A DNA stretch of 61,934 nucleotides from an uncultured Verrucomicrobiota bacterium (GTDB lineage: Bacteria > Verrucomicrobiota > Verrucomicrobiia > Limisphaerales > UBA9464), in the NCBI GenBank assembly GCA_903916195.1, contig CAIWVP010000057.1:1-61934 (forward strand), written 5' to 3'. Under the pieces are notes generated by a model that was not told the origin of the DNA, searched no databases, and saw only the letters and a list, made by a program, of their open reading frames with translations. The position numbers and the translations under genes were made by a program. Below are positions 49,227 to 61,934 of this stretch, in pieces (within the stretch, counting starts at the first letter, position 1; every line of letters starts with the position of its first letter).

Positions 49227-50033
49227 CTACTTGATCCGTCCGGAAGGTACCGAAGGCATGTTCCGGAACGAGGCTGTGGTGGACCAAAGGTTGATCGGCG
49301 TGATGGACTGACCATACGGCAAAGAGCGGACGCTGCCGTCGACAAAGCCGAAGTTGGACCGTCCCGATCGGGGGCCACCGCGGCTGTGACGGCCGTGTTC
49401 GACCTCGTTGATGTCGTCACCGCCGGCCGGACCCTGCAGGAAGTCCATGTAGGCTTGAGGAGAAGCGGACTTCTTTTCGCCAAACGTGATGGTTTCGGAC
49501 GGACTCGAAATCGCACCGAGGCGTACGGAGTATTCCCAGGTGAACCGGGGCGGGGTGGTGTCCAGGATGACTTGGAAGCGGGCCAAAGCCTCCGGCGGGA
49601 GCGTCTCCTTGAAATAGTCGTTCCACCCGTTGGCCAAGTAGCTCCGGTGAGAACCGTCCGCGTCGTAGGGGATCTGGCCCGAAAGGGGCTTCGGCACGTT
49701 CGGCGGCCAAGCGATCTGGGTAGGACCACGGGTATCGGCAGGGCACTTAAGGACGCTCTCGGTGCCGCCGTAGAAAGGAGACAGGGGCTGGATCCAGTAT
49801 GGGATTCCCTGCCGCGGAGGATCGTTGTCCCCGGAATCGTGGGCGTAACCGAGAAGGGCGAGGTCCAGTTGGCGGAGATTGGACTGGCAGCGGGCGCTTT
49901 GGGCCTGAGATCTCGCCTTGGAAAGACCCGGCAGCAGCAATGCCGCCAGGATGGCGATGATCGCGATGACCACCAACAATTCCACCAGAGTGAAGGCAGG
50001 ACGAGTGCGGGCTTGGAGAACGACGTGATCCAT
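49227..50033 (-). CDS. Type II secretion-like pseudopilin of the H-X9-DG family
   Basis: This 268-residue protein begins [20 protein letters not shown], a prepilin signal with processing expected before Phe14. The residue before the cut is Ala rather than the usual Gly. The hydrophobic helix [17 protein letters not shown] follows. The PVC-specific second block, [19 protein letters not shown], and the C-terminal [13 protein letters not shown] (H-X9-DG type) are clear. Such proteins are numerous in Planctomycetes and Verrucomicrobia and probably assemble into secretion pseudopili or surface structures; function is not known. It is the first gene of the ECF/FecR operon, 3 bases before the fusion gene. 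Its 5' flank (50034-50282) should hold the operon promoter. Confidence 0.92.
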
Positions 50034-50282
50034 GGACCGTAGCTAGAACGAGCAACGCAGGCGCCTCGGATATCCTGACACACGAATGATTTTCCTGCGG
50101 GTTTGAGGCGGATCAATGGGTGCCGGGCGGCCAGAGGTTGCTGCGGATGGCGTGCGACAGATTCTTTCGGGACCAGACCCAGACAAAATGATGCAGTCGA
50201 AGCGGGGTGTCCTTTCCCAGACACAAAAGATCGGCGCGGAGGCCCATTGCTGGCGTGGTCCGGGTTGTCGCACTGTCCACCC

Positions 50283-51215
50283 ATGCAGAAACGTCCGCTC
50301 GGCAAGACCGGGCTCCAGCTCCCGGTCCTCGGCTTCGGTGCGAGCTCGCTTGGCCAAGAATTCCGCAGCGTCACGCTGGATGAGGCCGTCCGCAGCGTCC
50401 ACGTCGCGCTCGATTGCGGCCTGAACTTTATCGACACCTCGCCGTTCTACGGCCGCGGGATGAGCGAGGTGCTGCTGGGCGTCGCGCTCAAAGGCGTGCC
50501 GCGCGACAGCTACACGCTCTGCACCAAGCTCGGCCGCTACGACCTGCCGCACTTCGATTTCTCCGCCAAGCGCGTCGCCGAATCGGTGGACGTCTCGCTC
50601 CACCGGATGGGCACGGACCATGTGGACCTGATGCTCTGCCACGACATCGAGTTCGTGGAGATGCAGCAGATCGTCGACGAGACCATCCCGGCGCTGCGCA
50701 AGGCCCAGCAGGCGGGCAAGGTCCGCTTCATCGGCTTCAGCGGTTATCCGCAGAAGATCTTCCGCTTCATCTGCGACCAGGTCGGCGTGGATTGCGTCCT
50801 GAGCTACAACCAGAACACGCTCCAGAACACCCGGTTCGCCGACCAGACCGTGCCCTACCTCAAGGCGAAGGGCGTCGGGGCGTTGAACGCGGGGCCTTTC
50901 AGCGCGCGGTTGCTGACCAACGCGCCGTTGCCCGCCTGGCTCAAGGAGCCAGAGGAGGTGAAGGCCGCCGCCCGCGCCGCCGCGGCGCTGTGCGCGAGCC
51001 GGGGCTCCGACATCGCGAAGCTGGCGCTCCAGTTCAGCATCGAGGACACCGACATCACCTCGACCATCGCCGGCAGCGCGAACCCGGACAACATCCGCCG
51101 CTGGGCACAGTGGGCCGCGGAACCGGTCGACCGGGAACTCCTCGCGGAGGTCCTGGCGATCTTCGCGCCGGTGAAAGACATCGGCCACACCGAGGGGCTG
51201 GCGAAGAACAACTAG
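50283..51215 (+). CDS. Aldo/keto reductase, L-galactose-dehydrogenase-like
   Basis: This is a 310-residue TIM-barrel NAD(P)-dependent oxidoreductase. The start MQKRPLGKTGLQLPVLGFGA, NFIDTSPFYGRGMSEVLLG (catalytic Asp/Tyr), KLGRYDLPHFDFSAKRV (catalytic Lys), HVDLMLCHDIEFVEMQQIVD (catalytic His) and GKVRFIGFSGYP are all canonical. The order and wording, especially LCHDIEF and ETIPALRKAQQAGKVRFIG, are close to plant L-galactose dehydrogenase and bacterial L-fucose dehydrogenase-type proteins. It would oxidise a 6-deoxy or galactose-type sugar at C1. The ATG at 50283 was chosen because it gives the family start. It is divergent from the pseudopilin operon and convergent with msrB. Confidence 0.9.
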   Translation: MQKRPLGKTGLQLPVLGFGASSLGQEFRSVTLDEAVRSVHVALDCGLNFIDTSPFYGRGMSEVLLGVALKGVPRDSYTLCTKLGRYDLPHFDFSAKRVAESVDVSLHRMGTDHVDLMLCHDIEFVEMQQIVDETIPALRKAQQAGKVRFIGFSGYPQKIFRFICDQVGVDCVLSYNQNTLQNTRFADQTVPYLKAKGVGALNAGPFSARLLTNAPLPAWLKEPEEVKAAARAAAALCASRGSDIAKLALQFSIEDTDITSTIAGSANPDNIRRWAQWAAEPVDRELLAEVLAIFAPVKDIGHTEGLAKNN

Positions 51216-51220
51216 GCCTC

Positions 51221-51241
51221 GGGGATCGGGGATCGGGGATC
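51221..51241. repeat. Three perfect tandem copies of GGGGATC
   Basis: The 7-base unit occurs at 51221-51227, 51228-51234 and 51235-51241, in the gap between the aldo/keto reductase stop and the msrB stop. The two genes converge here. It is probably a slippage product; no T-tract makes it a terminator. Confidence 0.9.
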
Positions 51242-51272
51242 GGCGGCAGTGGAGCGCGGAACCGGGACCGGG

Positions 51273-51671
51273 TCAGCGCGGCTTCTCGAAGGCCAACGAC
51301 GCGGAGTTGATGCAGAAACGCTTCCCCGTCGGTGCCGGGCCGTCGTCGAACACGTGGCCGAGATGGCCGTCGCAGCGCGCGCAGTGGACCTCCGTGCGCG
51401 TCATGAAGAACCCTCGGTCCTCGGTCGAACCGACATGCCCGTCTGCGATGGGCTTCCAGAAGCTGGGCCATCCGGTGCCGGACTCGAATTTGGCGTCCGC
51501 GCCGAAAAGATCCAGGCCGCACCCCGCGCAATGATAGGTCCCCGGATCATGGCTGCGCGCGAACGCACCGCTGAAGGCCCGTTCCGTGCCATGCTCGCGC
51601 AGGACCCGGAATTGCTCGGCCGTGAGTTGCTGACGCCACTGGGCATCGGTCTTGGTGATCTTGTCCGTCAT
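51273..51671 (-). CDS. msrB: Peptide-methionine (R)-S-oxide reductase
   Basis: MsrB reduces the R epimer of methionine sulfoxide in proteins. The 132-residue protein carries the zinc-binding pairs CAGC (48-51) and CARC (97-100) and the catalytic Cys120 in RFCINSASL. Other blocks, TEKAFSG-like HGTERAFSGAF, FESGTGWPSFW and GHLGHVFDDGP, are standard. The ATG at 51669-51671 gives MTDKITKTDAQWRQQLT, a normal N-terminus without signal peptide, so the protein should be cytoplasmic. No msrA lies beside it. It is the last gene before the convergent aldo/keto reductase; the upstream gene on this strand is the zinc-ribbon protein, 196 bases away. Confidence 0.96.
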   Translation of the reverse strand: MTDKITKTDAQWRQQLTAEQFRVLREHGTERAFSGAFARSHDPGTYHCAGCGLDLFGADAKFESGTGWPSFWKPIADGHVGSTEDRGFFMTRTEVHCARCDGHLGHVFDDGPAPTGKRFCINSASLAFEKPR

Positions 51672-51867
51672 GTTCCAGGAAGCGGTTGAGGTCCGTTCTC
51701 GACCTGCATGCACCGCACCGACGCCGCCACTGTCAGCTACACCGAGATCGACGTCGACGACGGTTCGGTGCGCATGGACCACAGCACCGAGGCCCTGTGT
51801 CGCGGCGCGGTCGTGTCCACCGGGACGCTGCGCCGGATCCGATGAGCAACGCCCTCGCGGCCGGATC

Positions 51868-53001
51868 TCAGCGCCGGTGGCCGAAGAAGATGACCAACGC
51901 CACGAAGGCAAGGATACCGAGCACGGTGAAAAGGATCTTCACCCAGCTCTTCGGATAACGGCCCGCGATGGCACCGGTGTAGCCGTTGACGACGACCTGG
52001 TAGCTCTTGCCGTGGTAGTCGTAGGTCAGCAGCCAGACCGGCGCGAGGATGTGCTTGAAGGTCTGGCCGGACCATTGGGCGCTCACCTGCAGGTTGCGGT
52101 GCGTGTCGCCCGGCACCTGGCGACCACACAGGTCGTGCAGCTTCTGCATCATCCCTTCGCGGCTGCTCTGGGCCGCCGCGACGAGGTCGATCTGGTAGCG
52201 TTCCACGACCCAGCCCGCGAGGAAGCCGGCCTGGTACGGGACAAGTTCCTTCGTCGGATAGCCCTGCACCTCATCGAGGAGCCCGCGATCGACGCCTTTG
52301 GAGGCGCACACCAGCTCATCGTCGAAGAAATGGTCGAGGCTGCCCCAGCTCGGCTCCCAGCGGGTGTGTTGGACCTGCCGCGTCTGGGTGTTGCCGTTCC
52401 CGTCGCGATAGGTCTCGGTGACGTAATAGTGGTAGCCGCTCTCGGCCGTCCAATCGGCGCGTGCCTGCGCGTCGAAGGTCCAGTACGGGATGTAGATCCC
52501 GTGGAGCCGGTCGGTCATGGCCCGGGTCCCGAGCGCGTTGGGGGCCCACCAGCGCCGGCCGTACCATTCGCGGACGGCGTCGCGCACCGCCGAGTCCGCC
52601 AGCTTGAACGGCAGCAGGCTCTCCGGACGGAACGCCTCCTTCACCTCCTCGTAGGCCACCAGCGCGGACGAACCGCAGAAATCGCAGCGCTGGCCGACCC
52701 GAGCCGGATCGAAGACCGAGATGGCCTGGCAGCTCTGGCAGCGCACCTGCACGCGCTCGGCCTCCCAGCCGCGCTGGCCGTCCATCCCGCGCAACGCGGC
52801 GACCAGGTCATGTTCCTGGATGCCGCCTTCGCCGCCCGGTGTCGGGTCGACGGTCGCCGGCGAGGCGGTGCCGCAGAAGCCGCAGACCAACGCTTGTTTC
52901 GCCGGGTTCCACGTCGCCTCGGCGCCGCAGGCCGGGCAGTGGAACTTGTTCTGCGCCGTGGCGGACACCGACGGGATCTGCGGAGGGACGTCGTCGCTCA
53001 T
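51868..53001 (-). CDS. Double zinc-ribbon protein with C-terminal membrane anchor, YdjJ-like
   Basis: This 377-residue protein has two zinc-ribbon motifs: C22/C25 with C40/C43 (CPACG, CGFCG) and C88/C91 with C106/C109 (CQSC, CDFCG). A central domain includes LPFKLADSAVRDAVREWYGR, YIPYWTFDAQARADWTAESG and ILAPVWLLTYDYHGKSYQVV. One C-terminal transmembrane helix (about 350-372) and a short cytoplasmic end FFGHRR follow. The pattern fits TFIIB-zinc-ribbon proteins, such as YdjJ of Bacillus, that accompany SPFH proteins of the YdjI/virion-core type. A homologous SPFH gene lies two genes upstream. It starts 3 bases after the GST-fold gene stop. The molecular role is unknown; a membrane-associated assembly role is suggested by context. 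Confidence 0.8.
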   Translation of the reverse strand: MSDDVPPQIPSVSATAQNKFHCPACGAEATWNPAKQALVCGFCGTASPATVDPTPGGEGGIQEHDLVAALRGMDGQRGWEAERVQVRCQSCQAISVFDPARVGQRCDFCGSSALVAYEEVKEAFRPESLLPFKLADSAVRDAVREWYGRRWWAPNALGTRAMTDRLHGIYIPYWTFDAQARADWTAESGYHYYVTETYRDGNGNTQTRQVQHTRWEPSWGSLDHFFDDELVCASKGVDRGLLDEVQGYPTKELVPYQAGFLAGWVVERYQIDLVAAAQSSREGMMQKLHDLCGRQVPGDTHRNLQVSAQWSGQTFKHILAPVWLLTYDYHGKSYQVVVNGYTGAIAGRYPKSWVKILFTVLGILAFVALVIFFGHRR

Positions 53002-53004
53002 GGC

Positions 53005-53742
53005 TCAGGCGAACCGGAAGGTCTTCATCCGCGCGAACCAATCGGCAAGGCGAGGCAGGCCGGGCGGGAACGGGTTCCAATCGTTGTAGGTCAGATTCGC
53101 CAGCACGCCGTAGAGCGCGAAGTCGGCATAGACCGGCTGTTCCCCGAGCAGGAACGGCTGGCCGATGAGCATGGCGTCGAACGGGACCAACAACGTCGCG
53201 GCCCGCGCGGACATCGCGACGTGGTCCGTGCGCCATTGGTCGACACAGCCGCGGCCGAAGCGACGCTCCTTGTGCCGGAGGGTCATCACCCGCTCGACCA
53301 GGTCGGCGATGGCCGGAACATAGTGGACGTCGGTCAGCTTGAAGGTCGCGCCTTCGATCTCACCCTCGATGTGCGGCACGAGGATTGCCTGAACGCCTTC
53401 GTGTTCGAGAGGGAAGAGGCGGCCCCGGCCCCAGACTCGGTCGATGTAGCGCGGTACGTCGAGGCCGTCAGAGGCGCCGACGTGAGGAGGCGGAGCGGCG
53501 GAATCCGCCGGGACCGTCCGCCTCGTCACCTCGGCGGCCACATCGGAGCCGTCGTAGACCAGCGTCCCGTCGTGCGCCAGCACCGGCACCTGATAGTAGG
53601 CGCCGTGGGTGAGGCGGATGATGACGCTGCGGTCGGCGTTCGAGATGTCCACCCCCTCGAACGCGACGCCGAGCGCCCCCAGCGCCCGCGTGATGGGCAG
53701 GCAGTAGGGGCTGTGGGGAAGCTGGTAGAGGAGGACGGCCAC
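53005..53742 (-). CDS. Glutathione S-transferase-fold protein
   Basis: This 245-residue protein has a thioredoxin-like N-terminal domain (VLLYQLPHSPYCLPITRALG, then AYYQVPVLAHDGTLVYDGSD with the cis-Pro VPVL) and an all-helical C-terminal domain (about 100-240). The SPYC site recalls the GST_N_3 subgroup, whose catalytic thiol can be a Cys or Ser. It could bind glutathione or act as a redox partner; no substrate is evident. It lies between an SPFH-HTH gene (61 bases upstream) and a zinc-ribbon gene (3 bases downstream), so it appears to be built into that module. This insertion is not part of the Bacillus YdjI-YdjJ arrangement that I know. Confidence 0.8.
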   Translation of the reverse strand: MAVLLYQLPHSPYCLPITRALGALGVAFEGVDISNADRSVIIRLTHGAYYQVPVLAHDGTLVYDGSDVAAEVTRRTVPADSAAPPPHVGASDGLDVPRYIDRVWGRGRLFPLEHEGVQAILVPHIEGEIEGATFKLTDVHYVPAIADLVERVMTLRHKERRFGRGCVDQWRTDHVAMSARAATLLVPFDAMLIGQPFLLGEQPVYADFALYGVLANLTYNDWNPFPPGLPRLADWFARMKTFRFA

Positions 53743-53803
53743 AGCGTTCCAGATCGTCAGTCGATAGCTCTGCCTGCGCCAAAATGCTCCATGGCGCGAC
53801 CGG

Positions 53804-54889
53804 CTAGCTCTTCAAGAAATCCTCCAGCGCCGTGCGGGTGATGCGCCACGCGGAGCCGATCTTCTTGCCCTTGAGCGAACCTTCGGCGAGCGACGCGAGC
53901 ACATCGGCCTCGGTCACGCCGAGCTTCTGCGCGACCTCGGCCGGCGAGAGCAGCTCTGGCAACGCGCCCGCGCCGCCACCGACAGGACCGGCCGCCGGGG
54001 CCGCCGCCTGCGTGCCCTGCGGCGCGCCGAGGATGCCACCGGGCTGGTTCATGAGCTGGCCGGCGAGGCCGAAGCCCATGGCGAGCTCGGCGGCGCTGCC
54101 GGCGGCGCCCGATCCGCCGCGGTCCTTGCCGAGGCTCTCGGCGAACTGGAGCTTCACGTAGTCGTTCAGGTTGCCGATCGCGGCCATGCTCGAACGCTTG
54201 TCGATGGCCTGCTCGACCTCGGGCGGAACGCTCACGTTCTCGACGATGAAGCTGCCGAGCTCGAGGCCGTACTTCGCCGCGAGGATCGGGTTCAGCACCG
54301 GCAACAGCGCATCGCCGAGCTCGGTGTAGCGCGTGGCGATGTCCAGGACCGGCACCTTGCTGGAAGCGAGCGCATCGGTGAACGCGCTGACCAACCGCGA
54401 CCGCATCGTGTCCTGGAACTCCTCCAACCGGAAATGCGCGTCGGTGCCGGCGACCTCCTTCAGGAAGGTCTTCACATCCACGACCTTGAAGTCGTACGTG
54501 CCGAAGGCCCGGGCGCGGACGATGCCGAAATCGGCATCGCGCAGCATGATCGGGTTGCTCGTGCCCCATTTGTTGCCGGTGAAGAGCCGGGTGTTGACGT
54601 AGTAGACGTCGGCCTTGAAAGGCGATTCGAAGCCGTATTTCCAGCCTTTGAGCGTGGACAGGACCGGGATGTTCTCGGTCACCAGGGTGTGCTTGCCCGG
54701 TCCGAAGGTGTCGCCGAACTGGCCGACGTACACGAACTGCGCCGCCTGGGACTCGCGGACGATGAGCTGCGCGCCGCGCTTGATCTCCTTGTCCAGGTCG
54801 GGGAACCGCCACGAGATCGTGTCGCGGGAATCGTCCTCCCACTGGATGATGTCCAGGAGTTGCGTCTTGAGGTAATCCATCAGGCCCAT
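53804..54889 (-). CDS. SPFH/YdjI-like protein with C-terminal helix-turn-helix
   Basis: This 361-residue protein starts MGLMDYLKTQLLDIIQWEDD, then SPFH core blocks (ISWRFPDLDKEIKRGAQLIV, RESQAAQFVYVGQFGDTFGP, GKHTLVTENIPVLSTLKGWK, FGIVRARAFGTYDFKVVDVK) close to Bacillus YdjI, the 'virion core' group. A Gly/Ala/Pro-rich linker spans about 270-315. The last ~50 residues, LLSPAEVAQKLGVTEADVLA through GSAWRITRTALEDFLKS, form an excisionase/MerR-type helix-turn-helix. SPFH proteins organise membrane microdomains; the DNA-binding-like tail is unusual. The start is supported by a clear Shine-Dalgarno sequence, rare in this window. It leads the SPFH-GST-zinc-ribbon module. Confidence 0.9.
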   Translation of the reverse strand: MGLMDYLKTQLLDIIQWEDDSRDTISWRFPDLDKEIKRGAQLIVRESQAAQFVYVGQFGDTFGPGKHTLVTENIPVLSTLKGWKYGFESPFKADVYYVNTRLFTGNKWGTSNPIMLRDADFGIVRARAFGTYDFKVVDVKTFLKEVAGTDAHFRLEEFQDTMRSRLVSAFTDALASSKVPVLDIATRYTELGDALLPVLNPILAAKYGLELGSFIVENVSVPPEVEQAIDKRSSMAAIGNLNDYVKLQFAESLGKDRGGSGAAGSAAELAMGFGLAGQLMNQPGGILGAPQGTQAAAPAAGPVGGGAGALPELLSPAEVAQKLGVTEADVLASLAEGSLKGKKIGSAWRITRTALEDFLKS

Positions 54890-54897
54890 AGGTCGTG

Positions 54898-54904
54898 TCC
54901 TTTC
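54898..54904 (-). promoter_or_regulatory. Shine-Dalgarno sequence of the SPFH gene
   Basis: On the minus strand GAAAGGA sits 8 bases before the ATG at 54889. This fixes the start against a second in-frame ATG nine bases later. It is the only clear ribosome-binding site I found at the starts inspected, so this mRNA may be translated strongly. Confidence 0.75.
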
Positions 54905-54972
54905 AGAGTGGTTGATCCGATTGCGGCGCGAGTTGTCGTCGTTGGCCGGCGGGAGCGATAGCGGAATGTCGG

Positions 54973-54993
54973 GCCGCCGATCCCATCGGCGGC
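54973..54993. repeat. Perfect inverted repeat, 9-base arms
   Basis: GCCGCCGAT (54973-54981), loop CCC, ATCGGCGGC (54985-54993). It lies in the leader of the SPFH gene, about 85 bases before its ATG and just after the terminator of the gene to its right. No T-tract follows on either strand, so it is not an intrinsic terminator. It could be an operator or an mRNA hairpin. Confidence 0.7.
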
Positions 54994-55011
54994 AAGCCAA
55001 AAACGACGGAC

Positions 55012-55040
55012 AAAAAAAGGCAGGCCCCGCAGGACCTGCC
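55012..55040 (-). terminator. Rho-independent terminator
   Basis: On the minus strand GGCAGG pairs with CCTGCC (55035-55040 with 55019-55024) around a GC-rich loop and is followed directly by seven Ts (55012-55018). It sits 26 bases after the stop of the secreted protein gene at 55067-55663 and separates it from the SPFH operon downstream. Confidence 0.8.
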
Positions 55041-55066
55041 GTTCGGAAGGAATCTTTGCGTCCGCA

Positions 55067-55663
55067 TCACTTCGCCGGAGCGGGAGCGGCGGCCGCGGCA
55101 GGCGCAGGCGCGGGTGCCGTCGGAGGCGCCACATCCACAGCGGGGGCCGGAGCCGGGGCCGGGGTGGTCTCCGGCGCCGCATGGGCTTTCTTCGCCTTCT
55201 TGGCCTTCTTCTTGGGCTTCGGTTCGTCGCTGCCGGCCTTGGTCGCGGCTTTGACGCCGAAGGAAGCCTTCACCACCACCTCGTCCTCGCTGGACTTCTC
55301 GACGCGTCCTTGGACGTGGTCGCCAGCCGCGATCAAGCTCAACGTCGCCGGTTTGCCGTCCTTCTCTAGGAGGCTGCGCGATCCCAACCCGATCACCCGA
55401 GGCTTGTCCTTGCCTTCGACGGTGAAGGTCATCGCGTTCTTGTCGACCGAGAGGACGGTGCCATGGAACGGGTACGGCTTGCCGGCCTTTTTGACCCCGT
55501 CGTCGTCGGGCTTGGCCTTCTCCGCTTTCGCGGCCTTATGGACTTTCGCCGCCTTGGGCGCAGGCGCGGCGCCGGCAGGTTTGGCGGCATCCTGTGCGAA
55601 TGCGCCCGGGAGGAGGGACAGGGCCGCCACGAGCGCGGCGAAGCGGGAGGACAAAGTTTTCAT
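55067..55663 (-). CDS. Exported Ala/Pro/Lys-rich protein with small beta domain
   Basis: This 198-residue protein has a signal peptide (MKTLSSRFAALVAALSLLPG AFA-type), then a Lys/Ala stretch, a compact region of about 75 residues (about 63-138) including FHGTVLSVDKNAMTFTVEGK and SRSLLEKDGKPATLSLIAAG that looks like an OB-type or beta-barrel domain, and a Lys-rich then Pro/Ala-rich tail. It recalls small secreted DUF5666-like domains, but I am not certain. It is followed by a strong terminator, so it is transcribed alone. No partner is obvious. Low-complexity tails suggest wall or surface association. Confidence 0.7.
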   Translation of the reverse strand: MKTLSSRFAALVAALSLLPGAFAQDAAKPAGAAPAPKAAKVHKAAKAEKAKPDDDGVKKAGKPYPFHGTVLSVDKNAMTFTVEGKDKPRVIGLGSRSLLEKDGKPATLSLIAAGDHVQGRVEKSSEDEVVVKASFGVKAATKAGSDEPKPKKKAKKAKKAHAAPETTPAPAPAPAVDVAPPTAPAPAPAAAAAPAPAK

Positions 55664-55800
55664 GGGAGGCGGTCAACGGACACCCAGCCGTCACGGAGAA
55701 CGCGGCCGATCGAACCTGGATCCCGATCTACTTTCGCCCGGTCTTGGTCCGCCCCCGAAACCGCGCCAAACGATACGGATGCGCTCAACGCCGATCCGAT

Positions 55801-55828
55801 GCTGAAAATGCACTGCTGAAAATGCACT
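55801..55828. repeat. Perfect tandem duplication of a 14-base unit at a start codon
   Basis: GCTGAAAATGCACT occurs at 55801-55814 and 55815-55828. Each copy contains an ATG; only the second (55822) is in frame with the downstream gene. The duplication changes spacing between any upstream signal and the used start. Confidence 0.9.
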
Positions 55829-56574
55829 TGCGCCTTAATTTTAGAATTCGTCAATGTAACTGCTTGAAAATACCACTTCGATTCTTTTGGGCGACCCTCC
55901 TGGTCGCTATGACCACGTCATTGAACCTGCTGGCACAGACCCGACCGACGGATACTCCCAGCGGTGATGGCGGACGCAAAGAATTGAAGGAAGCCGCTGC
56001 CACCCAGGAAGTGCAGCAGGAACTCGAATCGCCGGACGGCGTGGCCTTGCAGTTGTTGCCGGACGGTGGTTTCCGCCTCTACGGACGCGGCAGCGGCACC
56101 TACGATTTCAACGAGGCCGACGAGATCCGAGGAGCGAATCAAGACGCGACCCTCCGCGCCAAAGCCGCGATCGCCAAATTTCTCAAGGAGCGGATCCAGA
56201 GCGCGGATTCGATGAAAAACACCTCCGTGAAGATGAAGAAGCTCACCGCATCGAGTGGCGAAGCCCCCAAGGCTGAGATCACCAAGAACGACGTCCAGAC
56301 AAGGGTGGAACAAATCTCCTCGCGTGCCGACGAGGTGATGGCCGGACTCGTAATTATTTCCAGCACCAAGAAACCCATCGGGAATGGCGGCGAGATTCAA
56401 GTGACCATCGGATGGAGTTCCAAGACCCGAGGAACCGCCGAGGCCATCCGCGCCGGCAAACCGGTTCCCGGCGCCGGCAGTTCCGCCGGACAGGGGAAAG
56501 GCGGCACGAATGCCGTCGGAACTCTGACGGAAGAAAATCTTCCTCAAACAAAGCAGAACAAAACAGATTTTTAA
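55822..56574 (+). CDS. Exported protein, first member of a LPP20/FlgT-N-like trio
   Basis: This 250-residue protein has a signal region (about 15-38, LKIPLRFFWATLLVAMTTSL, then NLLAQ). The mature part holds SPDGVALQLLPDGGFRLYGR, TLRAKAAIAKFLKERIQSAD and GGEIQVTIGWSSKTRG. The AKAAIAKFLKE helix followed by polar strands resembles the core of the next two genes and the LPP20/FlgT-N pattern, in which Ala-rich helices lie beside a beta sheet. I know no function for it. The ATG at 55822 lies in the second copy of a 14-base duplication. The next gene starts 21 bases after its stop, and all three belong to one operon. Confidence 0.75.
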   Translation: MHLRLNFRIRQCNCLKIPLRFFWATLLVAMTTSLNLLAQTRPTDTPSGDGGRKELKEAAATQEVQQELESPDGVALQLLPDGGFRLYGRGSGTYDFNEADEIRGANQDATLRAKAAIAKFLKERIQSADSMKNTSVKMKKLTASSGEAPKAEITKNDVQTRVEQISSRADEVMAGLVIISSTKKPIGNGGEIQVTIGWSSKTRGTAEAIRAGKPVPGAGSSAGQGKGGTNAVGTLTEENLPQTKQNKTDF

Positions 56575-56595
56575 CCTTCTCGCCTGCACGAAGAC

Positions 56596-57144
56596 GTGAA
56601 CTCCAAGTTGAAGCTATTGGCCTTGGGTTTGGCTTGGCTAGGGTTCGCCGCGAGCGGATCCGCTCTCCGAGCTGCGGACAAGATCGATTTTCAGGGGCTC
56701 GCGGAATTCAGGACGCTGATCCTGACCAACGAAGCCCTCGCCCTTTCAGGCGTCGATGTCGTGACGCTGACCAACGGCAAGGCCTATCTGGTGTCCCTCG
56801 GCACGACGGCGAACCCTGCCAGGCAGGATCCGGGGGTGCAGGCAAAGCTGGATACCCGCAAAGTGGCCGAGGCCAAGGCCAGGAAAGCCGCGGCTGAATT
56901 TCTCGACGTGGAGGTCTCCACCGAAGAAAAGCTCACAGCGATGAGAAAAACAGAAACAGTCTCCACCCATGGAGCCTTGAAGAGCCAGACCACCAAACTG
57001 ATCAAGGTACGGGAGGAGATCATCACCCAAAAATCCCGGGTGGTTTTTTCCGGATCGAGAACGGTGGCCACTTGGTCGGGTGATGGAGGTGAAAGTTTTG
57101 TCGCCGTGGTCGCGTTTGAGCTGTCCGATAACAAATCGAAATGA
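56596..57144 (+). CDS. Exported protein, second member of the trio
   Basis: This 182-residue protein starts with a GTG codon, with signal peptide MNSKLKLLALGLAWLGFAAS. The mature part includes KVAEAKARKAAAEFLDVEVS, EEKLTAMRKTETVSTHGALK, KLIKVREEIITQKSRVVFSG and GGESFVAVVAFELSDN. The second half is colinear with the first trio member (AKAAIAKFLKE, VRxEI-type strand, VxIxW/VAFxLS end), so they are paralogues. The family is unknown to me beyond the LPP20/FlgT-N resemblance. Its stop overlaps the start of the third gene as ATGA, indicating translational coupling. Export to periplasm or surface is likely. Confidence 0.78.
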   Translation: MNSKLKLLALGLAWLGFAASGSALRAADKIDFQGLAEFRTLILTNEALALSGVDVVTLTNGKAYLVSLGTTANPARQDPGVQAKLDTRKVAEAKARKAAAEFLDVEVSTEEKLTAMRKTETVSTHGALKSQTTKLIKVREEIITQKSRVVFSGSRTVATWSGDGGESFVAVVAFELSDNKSK

Positions 57145-58412
57145 AACCGATCTTGGCACGCTTGATCTGCACCCTGTTGGTGATCAGTCTCTCCGAGGCA
57201 CAAGGCCAAGAACTCGTGGCGACGACCGCGCAGAAAGCGCCAAAGGGAGTGCCTGCCTTGCAGGAGGTGGAAGCCACCGGCACGGGAGCGACCGAGAACG
57301 AGGCTTTCAAGCAAGCGGTCGTGGACGCGGTCCGCCAAGTGGTGGGGACGTTGGTTTCCGCGGAGAACGTGGTCAAGAATGACCGCGTCATCAAAGATGA
57401 GGTCCTGACCTTGAGCAACGGATTCGTGGAAAATGTCCTGAACCAGGACAAATCCAGGATGGCCGACGGCACTTGGCAGGTGAAACTCAAGTGCACCGTC
57501 AGAAAGGGGCAGTTGTATGGCAAACTGCGCGGTGCGAACATCCGGACGATCAATTTCGAAGGGGACTCGATATTCGCGGACGTCGTCTCCCAGATCTCAT
57601 TGGAGAAGGAGGCGGCGGCCCTCTTGACCCGTGCGATGCTAGAATGGAACGGTAATCTATACGAGGCGGTCTCCATTTCTAGCAAACCCGAGATAGTCTC
57701 GAAGAGTGACGAGAGCGTCAAGATCCGGATGGCCTGCCGCGTCACATTGCGACGCACCGTTTATGAAAGCCAGTTTGTTCCAAGGCTCAAGAAGCTGTTC
57801 GATTCGCTCGCCATCGATAAATTCGCGGGAGTTCTGAATCGTGACCAAGAAAGAAATCTGCTCAGTGCAGAGAAGATGCCAATCCATATCAATGGTGCCG
57901 AGGAGGGCTATGTCTTTCCAAGCAAAACTATCGAATCTCTGAGGGATAGAACGAGAACAGAATGGCTCGGAGCTAATGGCGGGGTGTCCCTTGTTGTGTT
58001 CGCGGTTTTCCGGGAGTCCTCAGGGGCGTGTGTGCTCATCCGAAAATACAAGAACTGGCTACAGACCGGCACGAGGAAACTCGGATCGTTCTACATCACG
58101 CCCAGGTTTTCTTCAGGCAGTGCCAGCGAACCGGATTCAGACAGCCAATTTATAAATTTCGACGTGGAAATCCCGATCGAATCTCTCGCGAAGATAACCA
58201 AGATCGAGCTCCATGTGCATACGACACTCGATCGTCGATTGACATACAACAACCTTCCAACCGACGCGCCTGTTTTATTTGATGCCTCCAATGGTGGAGT
58301 CAAATTTATCCGCTTCAAACCAGGTGGTAAAGTCAAAGACGTGGGTGAGAAAAATTTCTATTATGTTCCCACGCTCCTGATGACCGATGATCAATTCCAA
58401 GGGGGCGAGTAA
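57141..58412 (+). CDS. Exported protein, third member of the trio, with FlgT-N-like domain
   Basis: This 423-residue protein has a signal peptide (about 1-23). Residues about 40-110 match the LPP20/FlgT N-terminal pattern: VEATGTGATENEAFKQAVVD, AVRQVVGTLVSAENVVKNDR, LTLSNGFVENVLN. A second domain (about 130-240) has FADVVSQISLEKEAAALLTR and VSKSDESVKIRMACRVTLRR. A third, C-terminal beta-rich part ends with FIRFKPGGKVKDVGEKNFYY. FlgT-like proteins help assemble the flagellar outer ring in Vibrio, and LPP20 is an outer-membrane lipoprotein; this protein need not do either. From about 57650 base composition falls well below the neighbours, so this end may have a different origin. Confidence 0.78.
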   Translation: MKPILARLICTLLVISLSEAQGQELVATTAQKAPKGVPALQEVEATGTGATENEAFKQAVVDAVRQVVGTLVSAENVVKNDRVIKDEVLTLSNGFVENVLNQDKSRMADGTWQVKLKCTVRKGQLYGKLRGANIRTINFEGDSIFADVVSQISLEKEAAALLTRAMLEWNGNLYEAVSISSKPEIVSKSDESVKIRMACRVTLRRTVYESQFVPRLKKLFDSLAIDKFAGVLNRDQERNLLSAEKMPIHINGAEEGYVFPSKTIESLRDRTRTEWLGANGGVSLVVFAVFRESSGACVLIRKYKNWLQTGTRKLGSFYITPRFSSGSASEPDSDSQFINFDVEIPIESLAKITKIELHVHTTLDRRLTYNNLPTDAPVLFDASNGGVKFIRFKPGGKVKDVGEKNFYYVPTLLMTDDQFQGGE

Positions 58413-58949
58413 AAGCGCAGATGAGACCGGCGACCCGAGCGCAGCACTCGCTTTGACCATGATTTGGGTTCGCCGACGTGCGAACGAAGACGCTGGACCG
58501 AGAGGGTCTGTTTGACCGCCGAAAGGGCTTTCACGAACTATCGGATCTTGGAAGAGCTGGGCGGAGATCACTGGCAGGCCGCCCCCCACCCTGTTTTCAT
58601 GGGCGTCCCTTTTCGTTCTGTGATCCTGGCCGTCGGGTGTTGCCAGTGAGACCCGAAGCCAGCCCTTTGCCAGGAAGACCGCCGATCTGCGCATCGAGTT
58701 CAGCAGCCCGGCCTTCATCGGCACACCCACGGTCCAAAGCCATGTGCTGGATGGCCTGCAGTTCGGCGCGTTGCCCCCCAACCCCGTAGCCGCCGAGGTG
58801 ACGAGGCGGAAGGCGGCATTCGCTTGGGACCGGCCCGTGCCGGAGCAACCCTCCGTCTCGTGATTCTCGGCGGGTACGTTTTGGATGTCCGATACTTTAT
58901 CGTTGGTCGTCGGGAAGCGGCGAGGCCACCTTGGGTCCGTCACATCGCT
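58413..58949. other. Decayed interval between the trio and the CobW-like gene
   Basis: No intact gene is seen in this 537-base stretch. Two stretches in different frames look protein-like but lack starts and are broken by stops: one near 58500-58650 (LTAERAFTNYRILEELGGDH) and one near 58624-58863. They may come from one frame-shifted ancestral gene. The last ~60 bases should carry the promoter of the GTPase gene. Confidence 0.5.
58624..58863 (+). pseudogene. Relic protein fragment, RAMP-like wording
   Basis: An open frame without a start codon runs from a stop at 58621-58623 to the TGA at 58861-58863. Its core, [20 protein letters not shown] followed by [11 protein letters not shown], resembles the N-terminal strand and loop of RAMP-fold proteins, for example Csf3-like or other CRISPR-associated subunits (LRIxFxxPxxxxxPxxLDxLL). 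No array, no other cas gene and no start are present. I rate it a fragment of uncertain identity. Confidence 0.3.
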
Positions 58950-59936
58950 ATGTCCCATCCGCCTGAACGTCTCCCTGTCATCCTGCTCACCGGGTTTCTC
59001 GGTGCCGGCAAGACGACGCTGCTGCTCCGCTGGCTCGCGGAATCGCCCGCCACCGGCAAGCGCCTCGGCGTCGTGATGAACGAGTTCGGCGCGGAGAGCG
59101 TGGACAGCCAACTCATCGGTCGGCCCGGCCTTCCCCTCTCGCAGGTCAGCGGCGGATGCGTCTGCTGCGCGTCGGACAACGAGCTGGGCAACGCCGTGAC
59201 CCGGCTCGTGAAGGACGGCGCGTGCGACTATCTCGTGGTGGAGACGAGCGGGCTGGCCGATCCGGACAACGTCATCGACGTGCTCACCGACCACGATCTG
59301 CTGCCCCAGGTGCGCTTGCAGGCCGTCGTCACCGTGGTGGATGCTCCTTGGTACGCGAAGCCGGGCAGTGGCGAAGGCGAACGCGTGCTGGCCCGGAAGC
59401 AGATCCAGTTCGCCCACGTGCTGTGCCTCTCCAAGTGCGACCGGCTCGGCGCGGACGACATCGCCCAAGTCGAGGCCGAGATGCACCGGCTGAACCCGCG
59501 TGCCCGGATCGTGAAACTGCCGTTCGGCCTGCCGGAACTCGGCGAGATCCTTGCCGGGCCCACCGCCGAAGCAGAACTTCGGGTCACGGCGGAGACGGAA
59601 GCGGAACAGGAACCGCACCTGCACCATTCCTATCAGAGCGTGACCTGGAGGTTCCCGGTGCCGGTCGAACGCTCGAAATTCGAGGCGTTCCTCAGCGGGT
59701 TGGACCCGCGACAGGTGGTCCGCGCCAAGGGCTTCGTCCGGTTCGTCCGCCAACCGGAGAAGCTCTTCATCTTCCAGTCGGTCTTCGGTCACCACTTCAT
59801 CGAGGAGTTCCCGGCGCGGCCCCATCCCGAGGCCGTCGCCGTGCTCATCGGGCCGCATCTCGACGCGGCGAAGGTCCATTCGCAGTTGCGTGCGCTGGTG
59901 TTCGCGGCGCAGCCGGCCGGGTTGAAGCTGGGTTGA
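58950..59936 (+). CDS. COG0523/CobW-family metal-chaperone GTPase
   Basis: This 328-residue G3E GTPase has the P-loop [18 protein letters not shown] at about 15-32, the metal-binding [14 protein letters not shown] with CVCC at 70-73, the Walker B/switch TSGLADPDN and a guanine-specificity [11 protein letters not shown]. The C-terminal CobW domain starts near 225 ([20 protein letters not shown]). Family members deliver zinc, cobalt or nickel to target enzymes or cofactors. No zur box, metal enzyme or cobalamin gene is near, so the metal is not known. The ATG at 58950 gives [20 protein letters not shown], matching family N-termini. The stop lies in a tandem duplication that repeats the last codons. 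Confidence 0.9.
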
Positions 59937-59942
59937 AGCTGG
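59921..59942. repeat. Tandem duplication of an 11-base unit at the CobW gene end
   Basis: GTTGAAGCTGG occurs at 59921-59931 and 59932-59942. The stop codon (59934-59936) is in the second copy. Slippage here alters the C-terminal residues (GLKLG) only. Confidence 0.9.
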
Positions 59943-59993
59943 GTTGACGCCCGGGCCGCGCGGGATGGGGCGCGCGGCGAAGCGGTCTTCCGC

Positions 59994-61601
59994 TCAATGC
60001 GCGAGTCCGCGGTCGGATTCGGGCAGCGGCTGTCCCTTGGTCTCCGGCGCGAACGGCAGCGCGATCAGGCCGATGAAGAACACCGCGCACATGGTGATGC
60101 CGGCATAGCGGAGCGGCTCCGCGTGGTCCTTGTACACCACGCCGGTGAGCAGCCCGAGCGTCGCCGGACCGGACGCGGCGACGAAACGGCCGACGTTGTA
60201 GCAGAAGCTCGTGCCGGTGCTGCGCAGGCGCGTCGGGAAGAGCTCCGGGAAGTAGATCGCGTAGCCACCGAAGAGCGCCAACTGGAAGAAGCCCATCACC
60301 GGGATCAGCCAGAACTGGCTGAAGTCGCGTAGGAACCAGAACACCGACGCGGTCGAGACCATCGCCGCGACCAGTGCGACGGCGAAGGCCGGCTTGCGGC
60401 CGAAGCGCTGCGCCACCAGGCCGAACGAGTAGATGCCGCAGAACGCTCCGATGTTCTGGATCATGGACGTGATGCCCGCCCAGAAAGTCAGCTTGCCCGG
60501 GATGAGGTGCTTGGCGACGCCCTCGGCGATGAATTTCTTCTCCAGCACCGAGCGCACGAGGTCGAAGCTGAAGAATCCGATTCCCCAGACGCCGATCACG
60601 CCCGACAACGCGAGCAGCAATCCGACCACGGCGCGCCGACGGTAGGTGGTGTCGCCACCACCGCCGAACACCGTCCAGATGCCCGCGCCGAGCGCGAGCA
60701 GCGCGAAGCCGCCGACCACGCCATGCTTCACGTACTTCCCTCCTTCGCCCGCGCCGGAGACGCCGAGGACCTGCTGCATCCACTCGATCGGGACGAGGAA
60801 CGCCACCAGGATCCCGACGACGAGGAGCAGGCCGGCGACGGTGGCCGGGACGCGCCAGTTCGGATTTCCGAAGAGCTCGCCGTAGTCGCCGAGCTTCTTG
60901 CGGTCCTTCGCCTCGCGGACGGTCTTCTGCCACGCCTCGGGCTCTTTGAGGTTGCGCCGGACGAAGACCACGAGGATCGCTGGGACCGCGCCGACCACGA
61001 ACATCCAACGCCACGCGGCCCAGCCTCCGAGCTTGCCCAGCACCCCGGTCTCCTCCATCTGGCCCAGCGCCATGCTGATGAGCGCGGCGGCGATGTTGCC
61101 GACCGTCGACAACGCCTGGAGGAGGCTCAGGGCGTAAGGACGCGCACGCTCCGGCATCACCTCCGCGACGAGCGCCACGCCCACCGCGAACTCGCCTCCG
61201 ACGCCGAGGCCGGTGAGGAAACGGAACAGCGCGAAATCCCAGAACTGGTGCGCGAACGCGCTGAGCCCGGTGCAGCCGGAGTAGAGCAGGATGGTGACGA
61301 GCATCGTCTTCGCCCGGCCCCAGCGGTCGCCGAGCACGCCGAACACCAATCCGCCGGAGGCCCAACCGAGCAGGAAGATCGCGGTGGCGTAGGCTCCCGC
61401 TGCCTGGAACTCCGCCGGCGTCGCAGGACGTCCGTACGCGTGGGAGAGCAGCTCCTTCATCGCCGGCACGCGGGCGAGGTTGAAGAGCTGTTGGTCCATG
61501 CAGTCGAGCAACCAACCGAGGGAAGCGACGACCAGCACGAACCATTGGTAACGGTTGAGCAGGCGCCACCAAGCGTGACCGGGATCGTTCGTGGAACTCA
61601 T
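59994..61601 (-). CDS. Major facilitator superfamily transporter, sugar/organic acid type
   Basis: This is a 535-residue transporter with 12 or more transmembrane helices. Family signatures include the loop between helices 2 and 3, GVLGDRWGRAKTMLVTILLY (G-x-L-x-D-R-x-GRR type), and ALFRFLTGLGVGGEFAVGVA. A second copy of the loop, GLVAQRFGRKPAFAVALVAA, starts the C-terminal half. The order resembles sialate, aromatic-acid or metabolite:H+ symporters. An inserted segment between the halves (about 240-345) holds two extra hydrophobic stretches. The ATG at 61599-61601 gives the expected cytoplasmic N-terminus; a longer frame upstream goes into AT-rich sequence. The substrate is not known; no catabolic genes are adjacent. 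Confidence 0.88.
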   Translation of the reverse strand: MSSTNDPGHAWWRLLNRYQWFVLVVASLGWLLDCMDQQLFNLARVPAMKELLSHAYGRPATPAEFQAAGAYATAIFLLGWASGGLVFGVLGDRWGRAKTMLVTILLYSGCTGLSAFAHQFWDFALFRFLTGLGVGGEFAVGVALVAEVMPERARPYALSLLQALSTVGNIAAALISMALGQMEETGVLGKLGGWAAWRWMFVVGAVPAILVVFVRRNLKEPEAWQKTVREAKDRKKLGDYGELFGNPNWRVPATVAGLLLVVGILVAFLVPIEWMQQVLGVSGAGEGGKYVKHGVVGGFALLALGAGIWTVFGGGGDTTYRRRAVVGLLLALSGVIGVWGIGFFSFDLVRSVLEKKFIAEGVAKHLIPGKLTFWAGITSMIQNIGAFCGIYSFGLVAQRFGRKPAFAVALVAAMVSTASVFWFLRDFSQFWLIPVMGFFQLALFGGYAIYFPELFPTRLRSTGTSFCYNVGRFVAASGPATLGLLTGVVYKDHAEPLRYAGITMCAVFFIGLIALPFAPETKGQPLPESDRGLAH

Positions 61602-61934
61602 GGGATGGTAAGTGTCAGGAGTTTGGGCGCGCGGCCCCTGCGGGTGGAAGCTCCGATTTCCCGGGTCGCGGTTTTGTTGCGGTGTGGGCTTTGGGCCGGT
61701 CGCAGCCAGGGTGTCGACAATTCCTGAGCCCAAAGAAGATAAGTATCTCTGCTGAATTGAAATCAATGCAAAACAATCGAGGCGATGATATAGAAAAATT
61801 GTTACCAACAATTTTGAATCAAACCTGCGATGAAGTTAAAGCGAGTGCTAGATTCAGTTTTGTTTAAATCTGTAACAAAATTTAATTACTGCACCATTCA
61901 ATAATTAATACATACGGCAACTGTTTATGCTGGA
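61602..61934. other. Window end, abrupt shift to AT-rich DNA
   Basis: From about 61735 the sequence becomes strongly AT-rich (AGATAAGTATCTCTGCTG, TTAATTACTGCACC, ATAATTAATACATA) while all before it is GC-rich. A short plus-strand frame reads ELKSMQNNRGDDIEKLLPT and stops at 61867; I do not recognise it. The minus-strand frame runs off the window. This part may be the edge of a foreign island or a spacer rich in promoters. Confidence 0.6.

Follow-up and report, generated by a model that had tools for sequence, protein, structure and literature searches.

What do three exported proteins, whose closest structural counterparts include building blocks of flagellar rings, do together in one operon with no flagellar gene among its scanned neighbours? 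The operon lies at 55822-58412 on the plus strand of a contig (CAIWVP010000057.1) from an uncultured Verrucomicrobiota bacterium; the whole stretch of DNA analysed, 61,934 nucleotides long, is called the window. Judged from the sequence, the three same-strand open reading frames (ORFs) of this region form an operon of apparently exported proteins. The spacer between genes 1 and 2 is 21 bases, and genes 2 and 3 share an ATGA stop/start overlap from which we infer that they are translationally coupled. By eye, the N-termini of all three products resemble Sec signal peptides, and none has an obvious lipobox cysteine where the signal sequence ends. The first-pass annotation of this DNA had described a stretch with these exact ends, the overlap and three signal peptides; the coordinates and the overlap are as it gave them, and the N-termini are signal-peptide-like. 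A scan for an operon promoter found none, compared with 0.9 expected from shuffled sequence. The parts of the operon are as follows.

55822-56574, plus strand: gene 1, an ORF of 250 amino acids for an apparently exported Lpp20-like protein.
56038-56418, plus strand: predicted Lpp20-like core of gene 1 (residues 73-199, AlphaFold), in which a long insertion separates the main helix from the last two strands.
56455-56571, plus strand: disordered C-terminal linker and conserved acidic-aromatic tail (TDF) of gene 1, residues 212-250, with a predicted local distance difference test score (pLDDT) below 50.
56596-57144, plus strand: gene 2, an ORF with a GTG start, 182 amino acids, for an apparently exported Lpp20/FlgP-like protein.
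56851-57111, plus strand: putative Lpp20-like core of gene 2, residues 86-172 (Pfam LPP20 at E 0.1, 13.5 bits against a cut-off of 25.9, and alignment to FlgP).
57141-57144, plus strand: ATGA overlap of the gene 2 stop and the gene 3 start, seen in the sequence.
57141-58412, plus strand: gene 3, an ORF of 423 amino acids for an apparently exported FlgT-N-like protein with further C-terminal parts.
57258-57533, plus strand: predicted FlgT-N-like (SHS2-fold) domain of gene 3, residues 40-131 (VIA structure comparison and family alignment).
57570-57833, plus strand: second alpha/beta domain of gene 3, residues ~144-231, from the AlphaFold secondary structure; it is conserved alongside the first domain in relatives.

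By comparison of their family profiles, genes 1 and 2 are homologous. The two window proteins do not match each other by BLASTP; their family profiles align over 116 columns with 93.6% probability (E 2.1e-7, profile-profile comparison), and nine ORFs are matched by the seed-only profiles of both genes. Iterated profiles of the two families absorbed each other, and seed-only results are used where the distinction matters. The common layout of genes 1 and 2 that had been proposed from the letters alone is therefore above chance. A joint profile of both genes gave one clearly significant match among Protein Data Bank (PDB) sequences, Francisella FTT_1539c (4qvr, E 4.5e-7). FTT_1539c, a larger hypothetical protein with a chain of 500 amino acids, is also the top Foldseek match of the gene 1 model (E 3.4e-4), followed by Lpp20 (5ok8, E 1.3e-3); these two are the sole probability-1.00 matches among the best 50. 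With VIA, Lpp20 5ok8 ranks first for gene 1 (Z 7.4, root-mean-square deviation (rmsd) 3.7 over 101 residues) and Tip-alpha next (Z 5.7); by the tool's own warning, Z values below 8 may reflect a commonplace arrangement. The model has a mean pLDDT of 56.9, with block means of 72-83 at residues 71-120 and 171-200 and of 45-64 for the insertion between them. In the family alignment, Pfam LPP20 is found in one of six members (E 0.16). On this modelling gene 1 has an Lpp20-like fold, which gene 2 would share through its homology to gene 1. The gene 1 profile alone matched a single PDB entry, MITSUBA-1 (E 0.0032 over 29 positions), which we take to be chance.

For gene 2, LPP20 is the most frequent Pfam family in the family alignment (five of seven members at E <= 1, best E 1.1e-5). 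The best PDB sequence match of its family profile is FlgP of the Vibrio LPHT ring (8z5n, E 0.023), followed by two chains named as lipoproteins. The alignment to FlgP consists of two collinear pieces, the second of them very weak.

Gene 3 is predicted to begin with a FlgT-N-like domain. Its AlphaFold model has a mean pLDDT of 52.9, with block means of 63-88 in the first domain (residues 41-130). FlgT (3w1e) residues 1-91 superpose on model residues 41-128 (VIA Z 6.5, rmsd 1.7 over 66 residues), and the other leading VIA matches are Tip-alpha (Z 6.7), HP1454 (5.8), dodecins (<= 5.8), Lpp20 (5.5) and an LPHT ring chain (5.3). Foldseek alone returned nothing at E <= 0.001 for this model; the FlgT, Lpp20 and Tip-alpha matches come from VIA. 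Dodecin, Lpp20 and FlgT share the SHS2-type fold of FlgP according to an excerpt of PMC12222027. In the domain alignment, FlgT_N is found in five of 18 members (best E 0.0054) and LPP20 in four of 18 (best E about 0.005), each at E <= 1. A distant relative in locus L074 comes close to the FlgT_N (PF16548) cut-off (E 5.1e-6, 27.4 bits against 28.8). The best PDB sequence match of the domain profile is the putative lipoprotein 9hmf_C (E 0.0014), which we take to be Campylobacter FlgP. Gene 3 itself has no Pfam match, FlgT_N, FlgT_M and FlgT_C included, and the C-terminal half of its model is poor. The FlgT-N pattern reported in the first pass is thus borne out by the structure match and by relatives, without a direct Pfam match.

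Gene 3 shows no significant relation to genes 1 and 2 in profile-profile comparison (0.6% and 0.5% probability). The first pass had called the three proteins paralogues; this stands for genes 1 and 2 as homologues, and gene 3 is related to them only at the level of the fold. One ORF, in locus L102, is matched by the seed profiles of both gene 2 and gene 3. At L102:2699-5767, a gene for an Lpp20/FlgT-N-type protein adjoins another for a FlgT-N-type protein and a third for a CsgG protein with sub-threshold matches to FlgT_M and FlgT_C, so that FlgT-like parts appear to be split there across separate genes.

None of the three proteins scores above the cut-off in Pfam, NCBIfam or PHROGs (all three searched) or among PDB sequences (gene 3); for Pfam LPP20 (PF02169) genes 1 and 3 have no match at all. 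The assignment therefore rests on relatives, profiles and models. FTT_1539c apart, the single E-values are modest; together they point one way, and neither the comparison of hidden Markov models nor the structures placed the proteins in unrelated folds, as the proposed Lpp20/FlgT-N assignment would lead one to expect. By sequence, we regard the three as uncatalogued relatives of the Lpp20 and FlgT families and not as members.

The set recurs in other genomes. In scans around the organism, gene 3 was found in two of 145 genomes, its own (itself only) and G137 from the same order and another family, gene 1 in its own only among 140, and gene 2 in its own and G137 (E 1.1e-4) among 140. On the G137 contig (VHDE01000184.1) the gene 2 match lies just upstream of the gene 3 match and a gene-1-type ORF of 255 amino acids precedes it. 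Profile searches of 387 genomes of the phylum (own included) found matches to the gene 3 protein pair in 39, to gene 1 in 13 and to gene 2 in eight. In ten of the 13 genomes with gene 1 (own included), a gene-3 domain lies on the same contig within 2.7 kb of the gene 1 match; the window and four others of these ten belonged to the gene 1 seed alignment. Seed-level matches to genes 1 and 3 occur together at 17 of 43 non-duplicate loci, always on one strand, and separate ORFs for genes 1, 2 and 3 on one strand at nine of the 43 (the window, L040, L043, L044, L045, L049, L071, L092 and L095). These fractions are not general rates, most of the 43 loci having been chosen for carrying gene 3 or gene 1 and two coming from one genome. 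The search for conserved operons in relatives that the first-pass annotation had proposed thus found all three parts at eight further loci. L043-L045 belong to one genus, L049 to a metagenome-assembled genome (MAG) of the same order and L095 to a Kiritimatiellae MAG. In the Gemmataceae MAG with L092 the order is gene 3, gene 1, gene 2. MAG contigs can be misbinned. With iterated profiles, gene-1/2-type and gene-3-type domains are found fused in one protein at six loci (L068, L069, L070, L072, L073 and L079).

The closest gene 1 relative found is at L068, with 45% identity across 159 residues. Around the closest gene 1 relatives, at L068:6473-15455 and L069:6460-15096, lie some seven same-strand genes with exported-looking products; the L068 cluster includes a fused gene-1-type/gene-3-type protein and lipoprotein-like neighbours with no informative Pfam match. 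A suspected CsgG-like nature of three lipoprotein-like neighbours in L068 and L069 found no support in Pfam. A second recurrent cluster, at L074, L076, L077, L080, L081 and L087 in the same phylum, pairs a protein of 269-279 amino acids with a FlgT_N-like protein of ~400 amino acids. Two small lipoprotein-like genes lie downstream in most of these loci and an Asn/Ser/Thr-rich exported protein is present in some; the cluster looks like an envelope system of its own. At L037:5159-9339, genes for an ion-channel protein, a TPR protein and an M48 peptidase lie between gene-3-type copies.

The gene set is not a flagellar part in general. The flagellar export protein FlhA is encoded on another contig of the window's genome (C66, E 4.7e-261), and the organism is therefore probably flagellated. 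Across the 21 carriers, defined as genomes with at least one of the three families (own included), FlhA is present in ten and has no match in 11, so that the set has no fixed link to flagella; most carrier genomes are incomplete and some absences could be gaps. Four carriers with all three parts and no FlhA match (G309, G349, G431 and G468) are 91-96% complete; two others, G137 and G311, have all three parts and FlhA. No flagellar family was found among the nine flanking proteins scanned (49230-61811), two of which have no informative family, and to this extent the reported absence of flagellar genes nearby is true.

Gene-1-type proteins end in a low-complexity linker followed by an acidic-aromatic tip (such as TDF, DFL, DFLK, EFL, DAF or TLF). 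This tail is present in 17 of 20 seed-level gene-1-type ORFs, one of 15 gene-2-type ORFs, two of 52 gene-3-type ORFs and 43 of 730 unrelated background ORFs longer than 150 amino acids. The pattern was defined post hoc and then widened, with a background of 35/776 before and 43/730 after. Not all counts are independent: L043-L045 contribute three of the 17 from one genus with identical tails, and some sequences are near-identical. Two of the three tail-less seed-level ORFs are fusions ending in another domain. Several gene-1-like ORFs of the wider iterated set (e.g. L036, L096 and L099) also lack the tail. We read the gene 1 tail as a putative docking peptide.

The operon also stands out by its base composition.

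55822-58412, plus strand: low-GC stretch coinciding with the operon, with a G+C fraction (GC) of 0.551, the lowest of the window.

Non-overlapping segments of equal length (sampled every 50 bases) have a GC of at least 0.628, and GC at third codon positions is 0.66-0.69 in the operon genes versus 0.82-0.90 in four flanking genes. Seven genomes of the same genus, one of which is 54% complete, yield no match to any of the three genes. G003 is the closest of them by CobW protein (94% identity); to it, the 2.9 kb downstream of the operon align at 92.9% identity, and synteny is lost just upstream of cobW, where G003 has different genes. The segment 58413-58785, which separates the operon from the conserved cobW segment, has no alignment to the G003 locus with its other upstream genes. 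A recent horizontal gain of the operon is suggested by this sequence comparison. Its GC is below that of the surroundings in six of seven relatives' loci examined as well, so the low GC may be a trait of the family, which weakens the case for transfer. A plasmid or phage origin was considered and dropped: gene 3 matched none of 72,556 plasmid and 50,697 phage records and gene 1 none of the plasmids, and in a scan of viral contigs none of 54 pattern matches was confirmed.

Around the operon, a divergent ORF with no informative Pfam match lies upstream (55067-55663, complement) and cobW downstream (58824-59936). Further upstream are an SPFH/Band_7 protein with a helix-turn-helix domain at its C-terminus (53804-55000, complement) and, on the strand opposite to the operon, a prepilin-type N-terminal motif at 49227-50033.

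Several known systems resemble the set. In Helicobacter pylori the multidomain secreted HP1454 is encoded in an operon with the single-domain Lpp20 (HP1456); HP1454 has three domains, the first resembling HP1456/Lpp20, and both proteins interacted with FlgP and FapH by co-immunoprecipitation or two-hybrid assay (excerpt of PMC11756786). The top structural matches include HP1454 for gene 3 and Lpp20 for gene 1. No orthology to either was found at the level of sequence, no Pfam cut-off being reached and neither protein being among the PDB sequence matches. Lpp20 is a lipoprotein, unlike the window proteins with no visible lipobox. HP1457, reported to be released with Lpp20 and HP1454 (excerpt of PMC7999756), is described as an LpoB homologue (excerpt of PMC11394524), whereas the operon matches neither LpoB nor CsgG. 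The Vibrio H-ring is built from FlgO, FlgP and FlgT and thereby combines, like the operon, a FlgP-like fold (gene 2 family) with a FlgT-N-like fold (gene 3) (excerpt of PMC6375700). It differs from the window set, which has no FlgO, FlgT_M or FlgT_C match in the operon, no flagellar neighbours found, relatives in genomes with no FlhA match, and the gene 1 tail. The FlgP basal disk of Campylobacter jejuni shares the SHS2-type ring-forming fold, and FlgQ resembles two FlgP repeats (excerpt of PMC12222027), as some relatives of the window set hold two gene-1-type domains per protein. FlgP differs in being a flagellar protein with a beta-hairpin insert; the gene 2 profile has an insert about 16 positions longer than that of Vibrio FlgP, a figure taken from the weak second alignment piece. 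The first-pass annotation had called the structure undescribed. Its kind is known, from H. pylori hp1454/hp1456 and Vibrio FlgO/P/T, and the statement may hold for this gene set, for which no Pfam or NCBIfam family lies above its cut-off and no description was recognised among the papers listed in searches of open-access literature.

By analogy with the Vibrio H-ring and the Campylobacter basal disk, we tentatively favour the possibility, serious but somewhat short of probable, that the three products are exported and, it seems, non-lipidated subunits of an envelope scaffold independent of flagella. The three products would pass through Sec to the periplasm, and their SHS2-type domains would pair edge to edge to give a ring or disc beneath the outer membrane. 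Relatives of this fold form rings, namely the FlgP basal disk and FlgT (excerpt of PMC12222027). Gene 3 might act as the base or organiser, much as the Vibrio rings require FlgT; genes 1 and 2 would supply two non-equivalent ring subunits that form the body of the scaffold. Gene 1 could then dock the assembly to an envelope partner through its disordered linker and acidic-aromatic C-terminus. Several observations weigh against such a scaffold. Both models have low overall confidence, with the C-terminal half of gene 3 practically unmodelled, and all VIA Z values are below 8 and can be commonplace. Ring formation accompanies a beta-hairpin insert (excerpt of PMC12222027); genes 1 and 2 have an insert, but the gene 1 model draws it as helices at low confidence. 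In G137 the gene 2 counterpart forms the C-terminal part of a 423-amino-acid protein instead of a small protein of its own, few genomes near the window carry the set (one other genome of the 145 scanned has a gene 3 match), and the operon holds neither a lipoprotein anchor nor a CsgG partner. Finally, the two-hybrid assay of the excerpted PMC11756786 detected no interaction between HP1454 and HP1456, so a joint operon does not guarantee direct contact. In its most specific form, an outer-membrane-associated ring of three non-lipidated subunits, independent of flagella, patchily distributed in Verrucomicrobiota and at least one Gemmataceae MAG and recruiting a client through the gene 1 tail, the proposal is rather unlikely.

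The same two-hybrid result suits a different account, on which the three are independent secreted or vesicle-borne envelope proteins, clustered through duplication and co-regulation and forming no joint complex. The H. pylori proteins Lpp20, HP1454 and Tip-alpha are commonly viewed in this light, and the top structural neighbours of the window proteins include all three as well as FTT_1539c. Lpp20 is described as being secreted in vesicles with HP1454 and HP1457 (excerpt of PMC7999756), and FTT_1539c is listed among proteins that react with sera from mice given an outer-membrane-vesicle vaccine (excerpt of PMC10963506). Clustering that is kept across divergent genomes, together with some domain fusions, favours joint function instead, and we hold the account of independent proteins to be doubtful. 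That the operon encodes a flagellar motor accessory of the H-ring or basal-disk type in the window organism is quite unlikely: FlgT and FlgP are flagellar and FlhA is found in the window's genome and in ten of the 21 carriers, G137 and G311 with all three parts among them, but 11 carriers have no FlhA match, including the four near-complete ones with all three parts, none of the nine flanking proteins scanned is flagellar, and gene 3 is unmatched in the seven same-genus genomes (one 54% complete). A stripped-down curli-type (CsgG) fibre or protein secretion device is improbable, for CsgG exceeds its Pfam cut-off in the related loci L073 (43.9 bits) and L102 (111.2 bits) but is absent from the operon, the best match in the organism's own genome reaches 19.2 bits against a cut-off of 20.8, and the flanking proteins scanned include no fibre-subunit family save the prepilin-type motif at 49227-50033.

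In the papers cited here, Lpp20/FlgP/FlgT-type proteins are flagellar motor parts or H. pylori surface proteins. A set that recurs in genomes with no FlhA match is a natural system for the role of this fold beyond flagella, and the tail of gene 1 offers a specific and testable route to a putative binding partner. The set also bears on whether the rings of flagella derive, by recruitment, from an older structure of the envelope. If the most specific form of the scaffold proposal is true, the H-ring and basal disk of flagella would represent a single specialised application of a broader set of envelope-ring parts.

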